Shown one piece after another: positions 754-15,942 of a stretch of 20,074 nucleotides of DNA. Every line of letters begins with the position of its first letter. Position 1 is the stretch's first letter. The notes under the pieces were generated by a model. It was not told the DNA's origin. It did no database searches and was given only the letters and a program-made list of their open reading frames with translations. Both the position numbers and the translations under genes were made by a program. The stretch spans positions 1 through 20,074 of IMG/VR virus record IMGVR_UViG_3300027659_000281; one strand, written 5' to 3'. The DNA comes from a virus.

Positions 754-1218
754 TTAATTGTCTTTTTCCCATGGAAAACTTATCCACTGATTATTAGTTA
801 GTCTATTTATAGATCTTGCTTTATAGTCAATAGCGAAATCTTGAGATACATTATAAAATAATGAACAAGATTTAATTTGACTAAAACCACTATCTTTTAG
901 TTTTTGTGCTATTTTTTGAAATGTTTGTCCACTATCACAAATATCGTCTACAACTAAAACCCTTTTATCCTTTGGTAATTCCTCTACTTCATATAGTCTA
1001 ACCTCAGTATCATCACTATCTCTTAGCTGGCAACTCATCATTATGAGAGGCTTATTTAAAAGATGACTCAACTTGATAGCTGGGATTAAACCGCCCCTTT
1101 TGACACCTACGATATAGTCTGGAATCCAATCACTAGCATATAGTTGTCTTCCCAAGTATAAAATATCATGATCAAAATTTTTCCAAGAATAGACTAACTG
1201 ATCCATAGTTTTAGTCAT
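754..1218 (-). CDS. Phosphoribosyltransferase (purine type)
   Basis: A 154-residue type I phosphoribosyltransferase. The PRPP-binding loop VLVVDDICDSGQT (87-99) carries the two acidic residues and the small/Thr end typical of the family. VGVKRGGLIPA (38-48) fits the pyrophosphate loop. Length and layout resemble bacterial xanthine-guanine or hypoxanthine phosphoribosyltransferases, which convert a free base plus PRPP to a nucleotide; the base is not readable from sequence. It would fit purine salvage during phage DNA synthesis. The start is weakly marked; Met5 (1206) is an alternative. It precedes the 61-aa ORF without a gap. A second, degraded-looking relative lies at 15939-16436. Confidence 0.85.
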   Translation of the reverse strand: MTKTMDQLVYSWKNFDHDILYLGRQLYASDWIPDYIVGVKRGGLIPAIKLSHLLNKPLIMMSCQLRDSDDTEVRLYEVEELPKDKRVLVVDDICDSGQTFQKIAQKLKDSGFSQIKSCSLFYNVSQDFAIDYKARSINRLTNNQWISFPWEKDN

Positions 1219-3403: not shown

Positions 3404-4057
3404 TTAATTTTTGATCTTATTGAGTTCTATACAAGTTTTACATTTTCCACATTCTTTAAATATATCCTTATCACTAATAATAGGAGTCCTACAACTCCAA
3501 GTCATGTTTCTTAGTTCTGTAGGAATAGTATTATATATCTCTGCTTTTGTTAAATGTTCAACAGGATATACTTTTTCAACATTTGGAACAAATAGTTTCA
3601 ATATTTGTGTTCCCCTAATAGCTCTTTCTTCTATATCTGCACCCATATCAGATTTTGTACGACCTACAGCAATTTTTTTAATATTAGGTAAACACTTACA
3701 AATAGAAGCCGCAATAAAATTGTATATATCACTATCAAACATAAAATTTTGATTAATAACTATAGCATCCGCCGTTTCTGTTAAATACGAATAAAAAGGA
3801 TATTCATGATAACTTTGACTATATTTAACCTTGTATGATTGAGATACATACGAAAGAATATTTCTAACAGACCGCTGCTCCGCTTCTGCTCTTTGTTCTT
3901 TATTCAGAAGATATAAATGATGTAGATGTATTTTGTTCTCTTTGTTCTGCAATAATTGCCATAAAGCCCCAGTAGAATCTAATCCACCAGAAAACATCAG
4001 TAATATATTTGAATCATCAATATCTATATTTTGTTTTTTTAATATATCTTCTATCAT
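3404..4057 (-). CDS. QueC-like PP-loop ATPase
   Basis: 217 residues. The ATP-binding PP-loop SGGLDST lies at 23-29, and a C-terminal zinc site is formed by Cys189 (TWSC), Cys203, Cys206 and Cys209 (CGKCKTC). This arrangement is that of QueC, which makes 7-cyano-7-deazaguanine (preQ0) for queuosine or for 7-deazaguanine in DNA. The spacing between the first two cysteines (13 residues) is wider than I recall for E. coli QueC, so a related amidating PP-loop enzyme is possible. No queD, queE, folE or transglycosylase gene is seen in this window. No strong ribosome site precedes the ATG at 4057. Confidence 0.75.
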   Translation of the reverse strand: MIEDILKKQNIDIDDSNILLMFSGGLDSTGALWQLLQNKENKIHLHHLYLLNKEQRAEAEQRSVRNILSYVSQSYKVKYSQSYHEYPFYSYLTETADAIVINQNFMFDSDIYNFIAASICKCLPNIKKIAVGRTKSDMGADIEERAIRGTQILKLFVPNVEKVYPVEHLTKAEIYNTIPTELRNMTWSCRTPIISDKDIFKECGKCKTCIELNKIKN

Positions 4058-4886: not shown

Positions 4887-5180
4887 TCATTTCTTTTCCC
4901 CAATAGTTTCATATTCTTGTATCCAAGCATTATAAACATCTTTAGCCTGTTGATGAGTATCACAAGAATAAATTATCCTAAATTTATGAAGATCAACTTC
5001 CCTAACAATATCGTTACCGTCTATTTCTTCATTAAACTGAGGAAGCCCCAATAGTTCTATCCAAGTTTTTTGTTTTATTGTAGATTCTCCAGACAAAAGC
5101 ATATCTTCTTCTAGTTCGTTTGGAATATATAGTGGGGGCCATCTCCATGAACGAGATGAACTAAAATCTTGATTATTCAT
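4887..5180 (-). CDS. Hypothetical protein, 97 aa, last gene of the chain
   Basis: Unrecognised. It has a polar N-terminus with SRSWRWPPLYIP, then a mixed alpha/beta body (KFRIIYSCDTHQQAKDVYNAW) and ends ETIGEKK, like tails in the chain. Its ATG at 5180 overlaps the TGA of the upstream gene (ATGA), and its ribosome site GGAG is part of that gene's last codons (Leu-Glu-His). It ends the run of overlapping genes; the inverted repeat at 4819-4850 follows. Confidence 0.75.
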   Translation of the reverse strand: MNNQDFSSSRSWRWPPLYIPNELEEDMLLSGESTIKQKTWIELLGLPQFNEEIDGNDIVREVDLHKFRIIYSCDTHQQAKDVYNAWIQEYETIGEKK

Positions 5181-5380
5181 TGATTATGCTCCAAATACTT
5201 ATATATAAAATCGGCCAGACCTTTTAATTCTTCCCTACTAATTGGTGGATGGGCATAATTTTTAGTACAGCCTAACATTAAGCCATAATTATCAGTAAAC
5301 ATCATGCCTTTATGAAATAGATGAAGATTAAAAGAGTCTGCTCTAAATGTACTCTTGTTTGATAAATTTTTATTTTCCAT
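5177..5380 (-). CDS. LADFIY-motif small protein (paralog 1)
   Basis: 67 residues from the ATG at 5380, chosen because GGGGAG lies upstream and the start forms TAATG with the preceding 29-aa ORF. The C-terminus SREELKGLADFIYKYLEHN carries the shared motif of this family. The N-terminal part is beta-like (FNLHLFHKGMMFTDNYGLML) and ends in a Pro-Pro turn before the motif, as in the copy at 8056-8274. The family is not known to me. From the sequence, a variable sheet followed by a conserved C-terminal helix is the likely build. No membrane segment or signal peptide. Confidence 0.78.
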   Translation of the reverse strand: MENKNLSNKSTFRADSFNLHLFHKGMMFTDNYGLMLGCTKNYAHPPISREELKGLADFIYKYLEHNQ

Positions 5381-5469
5381 TAAAACAACTCCCCATATCC
5401 ATTCCACCAATCATAAATACGAATACTAGCCATATAACCAAGAATAGCAAACAATACAAGACCAGCCAC
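5380..5469 (-). CDS. 29-aa membrane peptide, GTG start
   Basis: A tiny ORF from a GTG at 5469 to a TAA overlapping the next ATG. It begins with a hydrophobic helix (AGLVLFAILGYMASI) followed by RIYDWWNGYGELF. Evidence that it is real: it fits exactly between two genes with TAGTG and TAATG overlaps, has GGAG eight bases before the GTG, and its end contains the GGGGAG ribosome site of the next gene. Function unknown; probably inner membrane. Confidence 0.62.
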   Translation of the reverse strand: MAGLVLFAILGYMASIRIYDWWNGYGELF

Positions 5470-5678
5470 TAGTTATTCTCCAAATTTTTATTAAGAAAAT
5501 CGGCTAAACCCTTTAACTTATCTTTAGTCACTTGAAAGGCAACACTCTTATCATTTCGATCATTATAAATCGAAACATAACAAGAATTTCCATTCGTTAC
5601 CATTTCCACACTAATATCCTTATCAATATCATAATGAGCAGGATTAACTGTTTGCATATAATAATCTCTATCAACCAT
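5469..5678 (-). CDS. LADF-motif small protein (paralog 2)
   Basis: 69 residues. The C-terminal helix TKDKLKGLADFLNKNLENN belongs to the family, here with FLN in place of FIY. The N-terminal part includes beta-like ISVEMVTNGNSCYVSIYND. The final codons Leu-Glu-Asn-Asn contain GGAGAA, the ribosome site of the 29-aa ORF. Start and stop overlap the neighbours. Adjacent to paralog 3, which shares TKD-[KE]-L-[KR]-G-L, so the two probably arose by tandem duplication. Confidence 0.78.
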   Translation of the reverse strand: MVDRDYYMQTVNPAHYDIDKDISVEMVTNGNSCYVSIYNDRNDKSVAFQVTKDKLKGLADFLNKNLENN

Positions 5679-5869
5679 TAGTTATTTTCTCCTAGAAAGC
5701 TTTTAATAAAGTTCCCCAATCCCCTTAACTCATCCTTGGTCATTCTAACAGCTAGATATTCCCAACTAATAACATTACTAACATCAAACTTGACCATATT
5801 TTCCGACAGCATTTCAATATCAAATCGGGTAACATCAGCCTTATAAAAGTCTTTCATCACAATACTCAT
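5678..5869 (-). CDS. LADF-related small protein (paralog 3)
   Basis: 63 residues. The C-terminus TKDELRGLGNFIKSFLGENN is a diverged copy of the family motif (GLGNFI for GLADFI). The N-terminal half includes FDIEMLSENMVKFDVSNV, similar in pattern to the DIDKDISVEMV stretch of paralog 2. The start at 5869 follows GGAGAATCTTTA. The last codons (Gly-Glu-Asn-Asn) are close to the next start. Function unknown. Confidence 0.75.
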   Translation of the reverse strand: MSIVMKDFYKADVTRFDIEMLSENMVKFDVSNVISWEYLAVRMTKDELRGLGNFIKSFLGENN

Positions 5870-7243: not shown

Positions 7244-7399
7244 CTAAATTTCTTTGCGATCAGTTATTTTAACCACATAAGTGGCACGATCTTCATTAAG
7301 ACTATTTTCAATATTCATCCAAATAGTATCTATATCAGACTGAGTATTAGCTCTTATCTCAATAGTAATAATATAATTTTTTGTAATTTGATCAATCAT
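7244..7399 (-). CDS. Small hypothetical protein, 51 aa
   Basis: Starts at 7399 in TAATG overlap with the upstream LADFIY protein and ends in a TAG at 7244, 18 bases before the next gene. It alternates strand (NYIITIEIRANT), helix (DIDTIWMNIENSLNED) and strand (ATYVVKIT), a compact beta-alpha-beta arrangement. No known family. The GGGGAAAAA site upstream supports translation. Confidence 0.68.
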   Translation of the reverse strand: MIDQITKNYIITIEIRANTQSDIDTIWMNIENSLNEDRATYVVKITDRKEI

Positions 7400-7596
7400 T
7401 ATTTTTCCCCAATAGTCTCATAAATAAAATCGGCCAACGCCTTTAGTTCAAACTCATTAGCATTAGGATAAACATAGCCCCTTGTTGGAGCCAAAACAAT
7501 GTTGTATGGTTTTCCTGTAAAACTCTTTTGATAATCATCATTCTTATTAATAAAGAACCTGAACTGATTAGCATTAAAGACTGTGCCTGTGGTCAT
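7399..7596 (-). CDS. LADFIY-motif small protein (paralog 4)
   Basis: 65 residues. The C-terminal helix NEFELKALADFIYETIGEK is a close family member. The N-terminal part (FRFFINKNDDYQKSFTGKP) differs in sequence but keeps the strand-turn-strand look of the other copies. The terminal Ile-Gly-Glu-Lys codons (GGGGAAAAA) form the ribosome site of the next gene. The start at 7596 is in the chain, preceded by the 30-aa ORF. Confidence 0.78.
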   Translation of the reverse strand: MTTGTVFNANQFRFFINKNDDYQKSFTGKPYNIVLAPTRGYVYPNANEFELKALADFIYETIGEK

Positions 7597-8055: not shown

Positions 8056-8274
8056 TTATTCTCCAACAGTATCATATATAAAATCCGCCAATGCTAGTAA
8101 TTCTTCTTTTGTGGTTGGTGGATTGATTACATTATGCTTCTTGTTTGTTCTAAAGACCATACCATACTCATAACTGGTTAAGTTATCAGAATATCCACCA
8201 AAACGATCACGCTCTATGGCAAGATCAAAATATTCACCATCAAAAATATTCTGTTTAGGTATATAGTTACTCAT
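8056..8274 (-). CDS. LADFIY-motif small protein (paralog 5)
   Basis: 72 residues. The C-terminus TKEELLALADFIYDTVGE is a family member, preceded by NPP as paralog 1 has HPP. The middle holds SYEYGMVFRTN, matching NYGLMLGCTK of paralog 1. The ATG at 8274 overlaps the TGA of the frameshifted tail at 8271-8324, so that tail provides its purine-rich ribosome site. The last codons (Val-Gly-Glu) give GGAGAA for the next gene. Confidence 0.78.
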   Translation of the reverse strand: MSNYIPKQNIFDGEYFDLAIERDRFGGYSDNLTSYEYGMVFRTNKKHNVINPPTTKEELLALADFIYDTVGE

Positions 8275-8748: not shown

Positions 8749-8979
8749 TTACCACCCACGAACAATACATTTCATACCGGGATTCATCTCAACACATACA
8801 TGGTTTGTAACAACTGAGATAATTTTCCACCAACAATCGTTTTCAGATAGACCAATATCGGCCAATCGCTTAAACCACTCATCTGCAACATCTTCAAAAC
8901 ACAAAGCATCAATCTTCTCTTTGACGATTGAGTTATTTTGATACTTTTCGCTTTTCCATGAAAGTTCAAACTTGGTCAT
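8749..8979 (-). CDS. Hypothetical protein, 76 aa
   Basis: I choose the ATG at 8979 (MTKFELSW), which has GGAGAAAATA directly before it; a longer frame would need TTG. A helical part KIDALCFEDVADEWFKRLADI is followed by NDCWWKIISVVTNHVCVEMNPG and a basic end. No family known. It overlaps the upstream paralog 6 by 14 bases. Confidence 0.74.
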   Translation of the reverse strand: MTKFELSWKSEKYQNNSIVKEKIDALCFEDVADEWFKRLADIGLSENDCWWKIISVVTNHVCVEMNPGMKCIVRGW

Positions 8980-9223
8980 TATTTTCTCCAATAGATTTAT
9001 AAATAAAATCGGCCATTCCCTTTAGAGTTTCCCTATTCATATCTAATATATAATCATTAAGAATATCACCATTATCCCAAAAGTCCACCCTAAACATCTC
9101 CCCATTCTTTAGAGAGGTTTTATCTATGATTAAAAATAGATCATGATCAATTTGGTATTGATTATTGGATTGATGACCCTTTTTGATATTAGATTTATAG
9201 TTCTTGTTTGATTTAGTATTCAT
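8966..9223 (-). CDS. LADFIY-motif small protein (paralog 6)
   Basis: 85 residues, the longest member. A Lys/Asn/Ser-rich N-terminus (TKSNKNYKSNIKKGHQSNN) is followed by a strand-rich middle (DLFLIIDKTSLKNGEMFRVDFWDNG) and the motif NRETLKGMADFIYKSIGENN (M for L). The GGAG of the Ile-Gly-Glu-Asn codons is the ribosome site for the overlapping gene at 8749-8979. Function unknown. Second gene after promoter P5. Confidence 0.77.
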   Translation of the reverse strand: MNTKSNKNYKSNIKKGHQSNNQYQIDHDLFLIIDKTSLKNGEMFRVDFWDNGDILNDYILDMNRETLKGMADFIYKSIGENNDQV

Positions 9224-9442: not shown

Positions 9443-9471
9443 AGTATATCACAACGCATGGTGGCTGTCAA
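9443..9471 (-). promoter_or_regulatory. sigma70-type promoter P5, heads the tiny-gene chain
   Basis: Minus strand: TTGACA at 9471-9466, a 17-base spacer, TATACT at 9448-9443 with extended -10 TGA. It starts 8 bases past the 3' end of the tmRNA gene and faces the 22-gene chain 9396-4887. The 12-base context TGTGATATACTA is identical in promoter P7 at 12772. One of the best-matching promoters in the window. Confidence 0.85.
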
Positions 9472-9478
9472 TATTGAA

Positions 9479-9831
9479 TGGAGGCGGGGGAAGTCGAATC
9501 CCCGTCCTGTGATAATTCTAATTACATCTTCTACAAGTTTATTTTATTCATAAAATTTTGGATATGACTAAAGAATAAAAAACATTCATCAATCCTAGTG
9601 ACACATCTTAGCCTGTTAACCGTCACCACTAACAGGAGCCAAAGGATTTTACGACAATCTTTTGGACGCTACCTTTATCGCTTCCTAAGATTGTTGCTGT
9701 TATTTAATTAAGCAGCAAGGGCTAACTGATTTACGCCAGTTAAGCGTTTAATCTGGTTTTAAAGTAGCCACCAGATCAACTACTACTTGCTAATATAATC
9801 TTCCCTATCCAGTCGATACCGTTACGCCCCC
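9479..9831 (-). ncRNA. ssrA: tmRNA (transfer-messenger RNA)
   Basis: A complete one-piece tmRNA, 353 bases. The 5' end GGGGGCG (9831-9825) pairs with CGCCTCC near the 3' end, with a G-U wobble at the third pair (G3-U70), the alanine identity element. The T-arm is a GGGGA stem, TTCGACT loop and TCCCC stem, and A follows as discriminator; CCA is not encoded. The GGTATCGACTGG near the 5' end is the usual tmRNA 5' domain. The tag frame at 9737-9708 reads GGC GTA AAT CAG TTA GCC CTT GCT GCT TAA, that is GVNQLALAA, with TAACT just before the resume codon, like TAGTC in E. coli. CCTGTTA/TAACAGG and AACAATCTT/AAGATTGT pairs fit the later pseudoknot and helix region. It rescues stalled ribosomes and tags the product for proteolysis. 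Confidence 0.93.
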
Positions 9832-9837
9832 ATATAT

Positions 9838-10041
9838 TTATTCGTATTTAACCTTTTCAAGTCTCAAAAGCTCTTTTTTAATTTCACTATATTCTTGATC
9901 AGTAATCCAGTGATTATTTTGTAATGAATTTTCTAGTTTACTAATATAATTAATTAAATGCAAATTATAACCAAGAGATAAGAATAATGCACCAAAGAAC
10001 AAAACAAAAAAACTTAGTTTCCATATTGGCCTATTACACAT
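9838..10041 (-). CDS. Single-pass membrane protein with coiled-coil tail
   Basis: 67 residues. A short basic N-terminus is followed by a helix of about 20 residues (LSFFVLFFGALFLSLGYNL), then a polar helical tail (YSEIKKELLRLEKVK). Its stop lies 6 bases before the tmRNA 5' end, so the tmRNA may be cut from the same transcript; I see no separate promoter for it. The start overlaps the upstream gene by 8 bases. It resembles small phage inner-membrane proteins by form only. Confidence 0.72.
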   Translation of the reverse strand: MCNRPIWKLSFFVLFFGALFLSLGYNLHLINYISKLENSLQNNHWITDQEYSEIKKELLRLEKVKYE

Positions 10042-10297
10042 TTATATTTCCTTTTCTAATCATATTATGATATTCTATATCTGATAACCAGATATCATCA
10101 TTCATTTGTCGCCCATTATCTATAATACTCCAAATTTTTTTTCTTCCACGATAAGCTAATTTAAACCATAAATTTTTTCCAGAAAGATAACAGCATCTTT
10201 TATTGAAAGATAGTTGAAGACTCCATTCCCTATTGTCTAGTATACAACCTACTGATCTATTAAAAGGTTGGTCAAATCTGCAAGTTGTTTGAGACAT
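10034..10297 (-). CDS. Basic hypothetical protein, 87 aa
   Basis: Trp/Arg/Lys-rich and probably beta-rich: REWSLQLSFNKRCCYLSGKN, LWFKLAYRGRKKIWSIIDNG, then DDIWLSDIEYHNMIRKG. No family recognised. The ATG at 10297 lies inside the 58-codon frame at 10249-10425; an internal start would avoid the overlap, but none looks better. Co-transcribed with the membrane protein downstream. Confidence 0.68.
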   Translation of the reverse strand: MSQTTCRFDQPFNRSVGCILDNREWSLQLSFNKRCCYLSGKNLWFKLAYRGRKKIWSIIDNGRQMNDDIWLSDIEYHNMIRKGNINV

Positions 10298-10425
10298 CCT
10301 TGTATTTCCGATTCTACGTTTCTACATTTAATACAATTATCAGAATAAAAATATTCTTTTAATTCATCTAGCCTAGCTTTTAGGCTTGTTATTTCTTTTA
10401 GAAGTTTTTCGTTTTGGTTCATCAT
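10249..10425 (-). CDS. Possible overlapping coiled-coil ORF, 58 aa
   Basis: A frame overlapping the 3' end of the 10373-10774 gene and the 5' end of 10034-10297. It reads as a good heptad coiled coil (NEKLLKEITSLKARLDELKE), then CIKC, then EIQGCLKQLADLTNLLID. Its coherent amphipathic pattern argues it is real. Against: no clear ribosome site and overlap with two other ORFs. A weaker alternative is that it is chance. Confidence 0.5.
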   Translation of the reverse strand: MMNQNEKLLKEITSLKARLDELKEYFYSDNCIKCRNVESEIQGCLKQLADLTNLLIDQ

Positions 10426-10774
10426 CTTGAGTCTTTAATGTTAGTTCACTAGAAGGTATCCAGAAAATCATTTCGTTGAGTTCATCATCCCAAGCACATT
10501 CTACTCTACCAACAGCAGCAAGTTTTGCCAGACCAACATTATAAAGCCATACTCTAACTTCATCAAAAGTTTTATTATAGCTATCTTCATCAATCAATAG
10601 ATTACCATCCTCATCTTCACCAACACAGTTGGTTTTAATTAAGCCAACCATTTGATTTATGCTAATAAAATCATCCAAGTTTTCAGTATACAACTCTGTA
10701 AAAGACAAAGCAGCATTTTTTCTCATGCTTTTTGCATACATATCCAAATCACTAATTGAATAAATCTCACTCAT
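10373..10774 (-). CDS. Hypothetical protein, 133 aa
   Basis: Start at the ATG at 10774 (MSEIYSISDLD); a longer frame needs TTG. A helical N-terminal half (ISDLDMYAKSMRKNAALSFTELY) is followed by acidic DEDGNLLIDEDSYNKTFDEV, a strand region ending ECAWDDELNEMIFWIPSS, and a basic, probably disordered tail (KRKTSKRNNKPKS). No family recognised. The tail could bind nucleic acid. It follows the 96-aa gene by 15 bases. Confidence 0.74.
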   Translation of the reverse strand: MSEIYSISDLDMYAKSMRKNAALSFTELYTENLDDFISINQMVGLIKTNCVGEDEDGNLLIDEDSYNKTFDEVRVWLYNVGLAKLAAVGRVECAWDDELNEMIFWIPSSELTLKTQDDEPKRKTSKRNNKPKS

Positions 10775-10789
10775 ATTAATATACCCCAA

Positions 10790-11080
10790 TTAGATAAATT
10801 TTTGAACTGTTTGGCCTATTTTTTGACTACTTTTATCCAATAATCTATTCAAAGTTTTTTGCATAGTTTGATCTCCTCTAGGCAACCAACGACCATCTTC
10901 ATAAAGAGCAGTAATAATTTGCGGAATCCAATGTTGATACGCTAATTCAAACTCTTCTGGAAAATATACTTTGAGTATTCTTTCTATATGATATAAGTTA
11001 TTAACTATAGAATCCCTATGATCCAACAGATTATTTAATTGGTCTTTTTGGGTTTTAGTAAAACCTCCTTCAAGACTCAT
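10790..11080 (-). CDS. Helical hypothetical protein, 96 aa
   Basis: Mostly helical: TKTQKDQLNNLLDHRDSIVN, HIERILKVYFPEEFELAYQHW, then a Trp/Leu/Pro turn (GRWLPRGDQ) and a last helix. No known family. It starts in a TAATG overlap with the zinc-ribbon gene, whose last codons (Thr-Glu-Thr) contain the GGAG ribosome site. Confidence 0.74.
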   Translation of the reverse strand: MSLEGGFTKTQKDQLNNLLDHRDSIVNNLYHIERILKVYFPEEFELAYQHWIPQIITALYEDGRWLPRGDQTMQKTLNRLLDKSSQKIGQTVQKFI

Positions 11081-11493
11081 TAGACAGTCTCCGTTTTAGG
11101 TTTAAGTTTCATCAGTTTGTGCTTTGTTTTCCAAACTCCTGTTTCTGGATTTTGAAAATCCCTTCCCATATAAATGTGGCAGAAGCCGCTGGACTTGTCA
11201 AGGCCATAGGCACGAATACCTTTATCGTCTACGCTCTCAACAACAAAACGCCCCCTATATCCCATAGGAATAAATTCGCCCTTGGATACATAATACGGTC
11301 CACCAGCAACCTTTATTCTCTCTCCCTTGACTAGAGTTTTCCAATCAACCTTTTGAATGATCTTAGTATTCTTAGCCTCTTTGCTCTTGGGCTTAAATAT
11401 AAAAATATGATTGCACTTTTTGCAACAATATGCTCTTGGGCCAGTTGTGGTTCCGCAGTCTGGACAAGCCTTTTTACCTTTACCAAGTCCCAT
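11080..11493 (-). CDS. Zinc-ribbon protein, 137 aa
   Basis: The N-terminus has Cys10-x2-Cys13 and Cys24-x2-Cys27 (CPDCG ... CKKC), a zinc ribbon. After a basic linker comes a beta-rich domain with GERIKVAGGPYYVSKGEFIP and MGYRGRFVVESVDDKGIRAYG, which looks like a small barrel. I recall phage hypotheticals combining a zinc ribbon with this kind of G-x-R-I-K-V ... M-G-Y-R-G-x-F barrel, with no function. Nucleic-acid binding is plausible. First gene after promoter P2, with GGAG before the ATG at 11493. Confidence 0.78.
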   Translation of the reverse strand: MGLGKGKKACPDCGTTTGPRAYCCKKCNHIFIFKPKSKEAKNTKIIQKVDWKTLVKGERIKVAGGPYYVSKGEFIPMGYRGRFVVESVDDKGIRAYGLDKSSGFCHIYMGRDFQNPETGVWKTKHKLMKLKPKTETV

Positions 11494-11526: not shown

Positions 11527-11554
11527 AGTATAACAGAGTTATCGGCGTTGTCAA
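11527..11554 (-). promoter_or_regulatory. sigma70-type promoter P2
   Basis: Minus strand: TTGACA at 11554-11549, a 16-base spacer, TATACT at 11532-11527, with TGT as extended -10. The spacer has GCCGATAA, placed 8 bases before the -10 as in P1 and P3; P1 and P2 share it with the preceding TTGACAA. It drives the zinc-ribbon gene at 11493. Confidence 0.8.
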
Positions 11555-13537: not shown

Positions 13538-14449
13538 TTAAGAAAGTGAGGTTAAAAGTTCATTATATTCTGCAATTGCTAAATCCTTAGCTTTTAATTC
13601 CATGTCCACATCAAATTCTAAACCATAATTATCAAAAGTATTTTGAGGATAGTCAGCATGAGCGCGAGGATTATTACCTACCCTACTTTCACTATAATGA
13701 AATAGGCATCTGGTTTGCCAAGTATCATAACACATATTAATCGCTTCACGTTCTGTGAGATTATTAGGATGACACTTATGATGCAAGTAATCAAAACAGA
13801 TTGGAATACGAGTTATTGGATGAAAAATATCCACTAATTCTTTAACACTCCAGCAGTTTAGTTTATCGTCATTTTCAATGGTTAGTCTAGCTTGACAATT
13901 TTCATCTAGTTTTTTAAAGTTTGCATAAAATCTATGAGAAATTTCTTCTCTTGTACCATTATTGTTATGTACATGAAGATTCATAGGTGATCTAGTATCA
14001 GCCGGAAGTCCAATTCTGTCAAAGAAACTGCTGTAGAAGTTGAGTTCTGTGATTGTTTTCTCAACAACTTTTCCGTTGAGGCTTGACAAACTGTTAAATT
14101 CACTAGGATGAGCAGAAACACGAACATTAGTAGAGGAAATACTCTGTGCAATATTATCAAACTCATCTTGAATAGAGTCGTAGTTAGGTAAATCTTCTAG
14201 ATTAACATTTGCTGCGTCATAAGTAATTAAAGGGAAAATATCACTACTAACACGATAAACATAATTATTTTCCGCACAAAACTGTATGGTTTTATCTGTA
14301 ACCATTAGATTATTTTGAATTCTTGATCCAAGAATTTCCAATGCTTCTTCTCTAGGCAAAGAATTAAATCTTTTGAAAGTCATGGTTTGATGACCAAAAC
14401 CCTGCTCTTTGAGTTTAAGAGAAATACAGCAAAGACCGAACCTATTCAT
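13538..14449 (-). CDS. uvsE: UV-damage endonuclease (UvsE/UvdE)
   Basis: 303 residues, the full length of the bacterial enzyme. This TIM-barrel metal nuclease cuts 5' of UV photoproducts and starts alternative excision repair. Motifs in order: RVSSDIFPL (66-74), VSAHPSEF (111-118), NLHVHNNNG (157-165), TIENDD (190-195), CFDYLHHKCHP (218-228), HYSESR (251-256) and AHADY (263-267); the His, Glu and Asp metal ligands of the family are all present. Start at 14449 follows AGGAG, 20 bases after P4. Phages may carry it to protect genomes or virions damaged by sunlight, in line with a surface-water habitat (inference). Confidence 0.93.
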   Translation of the reverse strand: MNRFGLCCISLKLKEQGFGHQTMTFKRFNSLPREEALEILGSRIQNNLMVTDKTIQFCAENNYVYRVSSDIFPLITYDAANVNLEDLPNYDSIQDEFDNIAQSISSTNVRVSAHPSEFNSLSSLNGKVVEKTITELNFYSSFFDRIGLPADTRSPMNLHVHNNNGTREEISHRFYANFKKLDENCQARLTIENDDKLNCWSVKELVDIFHPITRIPICFDYLHHKCHPNNLTEREAINMCYDTWQTRCLFHYSESRVGNNPRAHADYPQNTFDNYGLEFDVDMELKAKDLAIAEYNELLTSLS

Positions 14450-15116: not shown

Positions 15117-15313
15117 TATACTAAAATTCCTTTATCGTCTACTACAGAAAAAATCTTGACAACTTTTAGTTTTGGCTCAAAATAATCATGAAAATTTTTA
15201 ATAGCCTGTTCTTTGGACGAAGCAAAAAAAGAATGATGTAAAATTAGTATCTGTTTATCTTCTCCAGAAGTTTCTTTAAGTTGTCCAGTTACAGTGAACT
15301 CTTTCTCTACCAT
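15116..15313 (-). CDS. Small beta-rich protein, 65 aa
   Basis: Strand-helix-strand pattern: KEFTVTGQLKETSGEDKQILIL, ASSKEQAIKNFHDYF, then KLKVVKIFSVVD. This resembles a small alpha/beta fold I have seen in phage hypotheticals near thyX genes, without a known role. GGAGG before the start at 15313, which overlaps the thyX stop by 7 bases, so it is coupled to thyX. Confidence 0.74.
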   Translation of the reverse strand: MVEKEFTVTGQLKETSGEDKQILILHHSFFASSKEQAIKNFHDYFEPKLKVVKIFSVVDDKGILV

Positions 15314-15942
15314 GACAAAGCCTCCGATATAATGGGAAATTGAGTTTTAAAAATTTCTTTAGCTTCATTAGCAATAATCATATGTTCTTTTTGAGTTCCA
15401 TGAGCAGACCTTAGATTAATATAATGTATCCACGATCTGATTGTGCCATTCATATAAAGTTTTGTTGGAGTGGCTAATGGCAATATAAATCTAGCACATT
15501 CTTTGGCTATTCCATCAGCTATCATACCATCATAAAGAGCCTTGCTTTTAGCAAAATGTTCACGGATTTTAGTATTCCATTTAACTCTTGTTTCGTCGGT
15601 TATATCATCTATACTATTTTGTCTATTCTTAGTATCTTGGCGACGTAATTCAAATACTGGAATTTCTTCTGATAACAATGTGGTATCCGCATATCTTTGT
15701 GAAAACTCTTGAAAATTGAAAGACCTATGACGTAAAATTTGTGCAGCTATACCTCTGGTTGTATTTATCTCAAGACTCATACTAGCCATTTCAAATATAG
15801 ACCAGTGCTGATGATCTATACAATATTTCAATAGTTTAGCATAGTTATCACTGTCTTGATTACTAGGATTTGAAACCCTAGCACAATAAGCCATCAATTT
15901 TTCTGCATCTGGAGTAACACTTACCAATTTCACTGAACTCAT
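15307..15942 (-). CDS. thyX: Flavin-dependent thymidylate synthase ThyX
   Basis: 211 residues. The signature RHR-x7-S is present: RHRSFNFQEFSQRY (71-84), with N76 and Q78 where many bacterial enzymes have Ser and Asn. ARVSN near residue 21 and RSWIHYINLR (in the C-terminal third) complete the FAD and dUMP sites. It methylates dUMP to dTMP with methylene-tetrahydrofolate and NADPH, supplying T for an AT-rich phage genome. The start is at 15942, after AGGAGAG, overlapping the upstream gene by 4 bases. Strong call. Confidence 0.95.
   Translation of the reverse strand: MSSVKLVSVTPDAEKLMAYCARVSNPSNQDSDNYAKLLKYCIDHQHWSIFEMASMSLEINTTRGIAAQILRHRSFNFQEFSQRYADTTLLSEEIPVFELRRQDTKNRQNSIDDITDETRVKWNTKIREHFAKSKALYDGMIADGIAKECARFILPLATPTKLYMNGTIRSWIHYINLRSAHGTQKEHMIIANEAKEIFKTQFPIISEALSW

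Follow-up and report, generated by a model that had tools for sequence, protein, structure and literature searches.

A one-piece tmRNA with the tag GVNQLALAA in a lineage of uncultivated phages

Introduction

tmRNA genes are already known from phages, including Bacillus phage G and mycobacteriophages Bxz1 and Wildcat (PMC4131195), and tmRNA is present in 402 of 18,146 phage genomes (PMC9004378). At about 2% of that genome set, it was fair of the initial annotation of the locus described here to call a phage tmRNA uncommon. The sequence analyzed, referred to below as the window, is a 20,074-nucleotide stretch of the viral record IMGVR_UViG_3300027659_000281. Like the known cases, it carries a tmRNA gene in a phage and probably depends on host SmpB. 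It differs in its glycine-first tag and in having no DNA similarity to a collection of 50,697 phage records.

Melnitz-type marine myophages are also large aquatic phages with a tmRNA, and thyX occurs in both groups (PMC9004378). The Melnitz-type tmRNA is two-piece (permuted), has alphaproteobacterial affinity, and comes with a glutamine riboswitch, whereas the window has a one-piece tmRNA and yielded no riboswitch match.

What is new here is a tmRNA from an uncultivated phage lineage that has a clear evolutionary record and tags absent from the bacterial genomes scanned. The tmRNA carriers thereby gain a lineage of phages that are uncultivated and mostly large. Its fixed gene position and unusually clear covariation make the lineage well suited to tests of why a tmRNA is retained in phages.

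Identification and anatomy of the tmRNA gene

A search of the window with the RF00023 covariance model (cmscan) identified a full-length tmRNA on the minus strand, with its 5' end at 9831 and its 3' end at 9479. The match scores 112.8 bits (E 8.6e-44), where the gathering score, the curated cut-off for tmRNA calls, is 47 bits. It extends over 9476–9831 and covers model positions 1–374 of 374, the 5' and pseudoknot regions included. The match is one-piece, and the gene order is not permuted. The alpha, beta, and cyano (two-piece) tmRNA models did not match the window, and cmscan returned no other RNA-family match in it even at E values up to 1.

The mature tmRNA is 353 nucleotides in length and CCA is not encoded. 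The acceptor pairs GGGGGCG with CGCCUCC, including G3-U70, and is followed by the discriminator A. The T-loop is UUCGACU. All four pseudoknots (PK1–PK4) can form in the window sequence, and the tag is encoded by GGC GUA AAU CAG UUA GCC CUU GCU GCU UAA. The initial annotation, a complete phage-borne tmRNA with the tag GVNQLALAA, is thus borne out. Its coordinates were right, the minus strand was left unstated, and each part that it named (acceptor with G3-U70, T-arm TTCGACT, tag frame ending in LALAA, later paired domains) is present. The features are listed in Table 1.

Table 1. Features of the tmRNA gene and its surroundings in the window.
Feature	Position	Strand	Support
tmRNA (ssrA), 353 nt mature	9479..9831	-	RF00023, 112.8 bits; covariation in 21 relatives
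5' acceptor strand GGGGGCG (G3 pairs with U70)	9825..9831	-	
Helix P2, 5' strand (3' strand at 9507-9538)	9785..9812	-	Fold and covariation
PK1 (AGUAG/CUACU and AUCUGGU/ACCAGAU)	9751..9784	-	Compensatory changes in both stems
Tag frame GVNQLALAA and UAA (resume codon GGC at 9737-9735)	9708..9737	-	
PK2	9641..9693	-	Fold and covariation
PK3	9598..9636	-	One stem with 7/7 pairs changed on both sides
PK4	9543..9595	-	Weakest, with 74% of cells paired in stem a
T-arm GGGGA-UUCGACU-UCCCC (9487-9503) and 3' acceptor strand CGCCUCC (9480-9486)	9480..9503	-	
Upstream gene set that ends just before the tmRNA (ORFs 11080-11493, 10790-11080, 10373-10789, 10034-10297, 9838-10041)	9838..11493	-	
138-aa protein, function unknown; syntenic neighbor used to find relatives	10373..10789	-	36 viral loci
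Sigma-70 promoter-like site TTGACA-16-TATACT before the upstream gene set	11527..11554	-	
Sigma-70 promoter-like site TTGACA-17-TATACT before the small-gene chain, 8 bases past the tmRNA 3' end	9443..9471	-	
Tiny paralogues	566-787, 5177-5410, 5469-5678, 5678-5869, 7399-7596, 8056-8274, 8966-9223	-	Shared terminal motif
UV-damage endonuclease (UvdE), ThyX, QueC-like, phosphoribosyltransferase	13538-14449, 15307-15942, 3404-4057, 754-1218	-	

With default settings, ARAGORN called no tmRNA gene in the window. When it was run with relaxed settings on the isolated gene, GVNQLALAA was among the low-confidence permuted candidates. The tmRNAs that ARAGORN called in near relatives are one-piece, and almost all carry the same GVNQLALAA tag.

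Covariation of the fold

A structure made up of the acceptor, T-arm, P2, and all four pseudoknots was drawn from the window sequence and tested on an alignment of 21 distinct phage copies. Under this structure 93.9% of alignment cells pair. Changes on both sides occur in 43 of 82 pairs, against 26.2 (s.d. 2.5) in shuffles, and the covariation score is 0.355, against 0.147 in shuffles; such shuffle tests are inflated by relatedness. The slid controls keep relatedness, yet the best of them reaches 0.093, far below the real score. Compensated pairs are present in all four pseudoknots and are weakest in PK4. The minimum free energy of the tmRNA is 3.6 s.d. below that of shuffles; the strong structural evidence is the covariation in relatives, which ranks above the free energy. 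RF00023 scores of the phage copies range from 73 to 134 bits, under most bacterial tmRNAs sampled.

G3-U70 is unchanged in 21 of 21 copies, while acceptor pairs 4, 5, and 6 covary. The acceptor variants include GGGGGCG/CGCCUCC, GGGUGCG/CGCAUCC, GGGCCGG/CCGGUCC, and GGGCGAG/CUCGUCC, with GGGCUAG/CUAGUCC in a second subfamily. A constant G3-U70 amid covarying pairs is as predicted by selection for alanine charging.

One related copy (L070, 1501-1858, minus strand) has mismatched acceptor halves, GGGGGCG with CUCGUCC. It may be a natural or assembly chimera of two alleles, or a damaged copy.

Tag peptide and resume context

Ten tag variants were read: GVNQLALAA, GVNQFALAA, GNNQLALAA, GNTQLALAA, GTNQLALAA, GTTQLALAA, GEVTLALAA, GEVTLTLALAA, GKTSLALAA, and GERTFALAA. 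All ten begin with Gly and end with ALAA, while positions 2–4 vary. ALAA is the usual end of a ClpX-type degron. The ALAA codons vary synonymously (GCC/GCA/GCU, CUU/CUC), and since the ends stay fixed despite these codon changes, selection appears to act on the tag peptide itself.

The resume codon GGC is preceded by UAACU, which has U in position -5 and A in position -4. Neither base varies among the unique copies read, and the two are equivalent to U85 and A86 of E. coli, the frame-setting bases (PMC2481249).

The exact GVNQLALAA pattern had no match in the bacterial genome set scanned, which agrees with the initial annotation that the tag is unlike known ones. The same annotation regarded a glycine resume codon as unusual, and this did not hold. 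The phage resume context followed by a Gly-first 9-amino-acid tag ending in ALAA has at least 120 matches in bacterial genomes, nearly all of them Bacteroidota among the matches listed, and several Ignavibacteria have Gly-first tags too. GENNYALAA is the most frequent tag among the Gly-first matches listed. A literature search for the Bacteroidota tag strings found no mention of them in the papers covered.

The tmRNAs of Bacteroidota and Ignavibacteria (GENNYALAA, GEYNYALAA) share with the phage copies the UUAAYU-GGC context, the initial Gly, and a 9-amino-acid tag ending in ALAA. Tag position 5 is Leu (or Phe) in the phages and mostly Tyr in these bacteria, and the phage tmRNAs are 352–359 nucleotides in length, as opposed to about 400 in most Bacteroidota measured. 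Tags of Ignavibacteria are Gly-, Asp-, or Ala-first, and those of Verrucomicrobiota are nearly always Ala-first.

Conservation in related phages

The window record is classed as viral, and relatives of the neighbor gene (Table 1) lie in viral contigs of up to 224 kb. The 224-kb relative (G019) carries terminase and portal genes; its terminase aligns to those of cultured phages over roughly 70% of its length, at approximately 24–26% identity. The tmRNA gene is located in a phage genome and not in host DNA.

Of the 36 phage contigs that share the neighbor gene, at least 31 contain a tmRNA over the cut-off; L030, which has the tag motif, brings the total to at least 32. In most loci the tag motif is on the same strand, 0.6–2.1 kb downstream of the neighbor. 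Of the four loci with neither, three (L035, L046, L054) end 0.07–0.9 kb past the neighbor. Among 24 larger or related records, 22 also contain a tmRNA over the cut-off, as do 11 of another 12 syntenic loci. A degenerate tag pattern matches 19 viral contigs, 18 of which have a tmRNA over the cut-off. The nineteenth, L005, is apparently not a tmRNA locus, as neither the contig nor its 230-kb record contains a match over the cut-off. That dozens of related phages share this gene at one fixed place indicates that the tmRNA is real and maintained, and it looks near-universal in this lineage.

A group I intron match was observed in a related 187-kb phage record (L009, 1436-1623, minus strand).

Apparent exchange of tmRNA alleles

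Two relatives (L008 and L012) match the window at 97% and 94% identity in the tmRNA region, although the approximately 2 kb upstream of it is 72–74% identical. The reverse pattern is seen in L021, L023, and L009, which are 83–85% identical over stretches that include the tmRNA and only 74–78% within it. The tmRNA copies of L023 and L021 are identical. L011 differs from the window at 15 positions, of which 12 lie at 317–356, near the 3' end, and its 3' end is the same as that of L009. Recombination that swaps tmRNA alleles best explains the disagreement between tmRNA and backbone histories, and the alleles appear to be exchanged on their own between divergent phages.

Downstream of the tmRNA of L008 (2174-2529, minus strand), 15 bp of the tmRNA 3' end (CCCGCCTCCATTTTT) recur as a direct repeat about 21 bases further on, as if the copy were an insertion remnant. 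The tmRNA end is a common integration site in bacteria.

Candidate hosts

The tag and the resume context are a lead to the host. With a profile of the phage tmRNAs, the best bacterial locus is in an Ignavibacteria MAG (L180, 57 bits), and two Verrucomicrobiota score 55–56 bits (one 55.7). As these are close behind, the affinity to Bacteroidota and Ignavibacteria rests mainly on the resume context. On that basis the phage tmRNA looks Bacteroidota/Ignavibacteria-like.

The use of promoters and Shine-Dalgarno sequences does not match this affinity, which sharpens the host question. In 402 kb of these phages there are 70 TTGACA-16/18-TATANT sites against 1.5 expected, and 18 Bacteroidota-type promoters (TTTG...TAnnTTTG) against 11 expected. 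In the Bacteroidia loci, sigma-70 consensus sites number 3 against 2.2 expected and Bacteroidota-type promoters 105 against 27 expected. A Shine-Dalgarno sequence is present at 19% of phage ORFs and at 6% in Bacteroidia. This usage is the opposite of that in the Bacteroidia sampled, so Bacteroidia are unlikely hosts despite their similar tmRNA. In Ignavibacteria, Shine-Dalgarno sequences occur at 14% against a 2.4% background, sigma-70 consensus sites number 2 against 0.5 expected in 100 kb, and some tags are Gly-first. Ignavibacteria or another Gly-first group is a possible host.

Two other groups were considered and rejected. Verrucomicrobiota have a different resume context and nearly all their tags are Ala-first, though two of their tmRNAs are near the best profile score. 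A cyanobacterial host was hinted at by ThyX (approximately 70% identical to cyanophage proteins), but no psbA-type or NblA genes were found in 24 records. A search of the phage records for the T4-like major capsid protein (PF07068) gave no match, and no control matched either.

Function and alternative explanations

SmpB was found in none of 14 phage records, with bacterial controls positive, the window being a 20-kb fragment and related records possibly incomplete. SspB was found in none of 11. Partners would therefore have to come from the host. The complete anatomy, conserved synteny, covarying fold, alanine determinant, and conserved frame with its degron end, together with the lack of a detected SmpB, suggest that this is probably a working tmRNA dependent on host SmpB, AlaRS, and protease.

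As reconstructed from sequence, the tmRNA would be transcribed together with the phage genes upstream of it. Host enzymes would trim it and add CCA, and it would be charged with alanine by way of G3-U70. Together with host SmpB, it would be brought to ribosomes that have stalled on broken messages, where translation would resume at GGC, add (Ala)-GVNQLALAA, and end with release at UAA. A host ClpXP-type protease would then degrade the LAA-ended protein. For the phage, the gain would probably be more ribosome recycling while host mRNA and DNA are broken down. Rescue during host mRNA decay is plausible, and a comparable part in recycling was suggested for a different phage tmRNA (PMC9004378).

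Ranked next after ordinary trans-translation, though unlikely, is a substitute role: defense nucleases, toxins, or phage shut-off would destroy or disable the host tmRNA during infection, and the phage copy, its sequence kept unlike that of the host, would replace it. The tag absent from the bacterial genomes scanned, the fast but compensated change of acceptor stem and T-arm, and the apparent exchange of alleles between phages would all fit such a role. Drift and recombination could explain the fast change, however, and no cleavage site or nuclease was identified. Less likely again is that the lineage keeps a Bacteroidota/Ignavibacteria-type tmRNA while infecting other bacteria, swapping alleles because a host-unlike tmRNA would escape a defense, toxin, or integrase acting on that of the host.

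The initial annotation also suggested a different fate for tagged proteins, in which the altered tag would evade an adaptor such as SspB or lead to another protease. Tag positions 2–4 do vary and differ from those of the bacterial tags sampled, but bacterial tags are themselves highly variable in the middle, Bacteroidota commonly have short Gly-first tags, and the phage records searched lack SspB. With the ALAA end invariant, the suggestion is unsupported and more improbable still. The least probable account is a non-functional passenger or an inhibitor of the host tmRNA, for which the tRNA-like-domain-only molecule of mycobacteriophage DS6A is a precedent (PMC4131195). That molecule, a phage-borne tmRNA relative, lacks the mRNA-like part and barely exceeds the tRNA-like domain, whereas the window copy is full length with all parts, and its reading frame, resume context, and four pseudoknots appear to be under selection.

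Surrounding genes and promoters

The 5' end of the tmRNA lies 6 bases past the stop codon of the upstream ORF (end 9838), and the upstream gene set is probably co-transcribed with it. This gap, together with the promoter-like site beyond the 3' end, agrees with the placement first proposed, between the upstream operon and the promoter of the tiny-gene chain. The window contains five perfect or near-perfect sigma-70 sites, where 0.1 are expected: 14496-14469, 12318-12291, and 2667-2638 (all minus strand) and the two in Table 1. The tmRNA transcription unit is flanked by one consensus site on each side. A further 65 sigma-70 consensus sites are present in related phage loci, and the site past the tmRNA 3' end has no counterpart at the same place in relatives.

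Where the window has its promoter past the tmRNA, relatives including L009, L012, L013, L015, L004, L067, and L073 have a small conserved ORF of zinc-ribbon-like type (M(S)RKICTYCGKRK...), which starts a few bases after their tmRNA. A tRNA-Ile with anticodon UAU is located 0.2–0.5 kb before the tmRNA in L003, L007, L008, L012, L017-L019, L025, and L026, and is absent from the window. At least seven of the tiny genes after the tmRNA look like diverged paralogues ending in approximately LKGLADFIYKxxGEN, a small expanded family.
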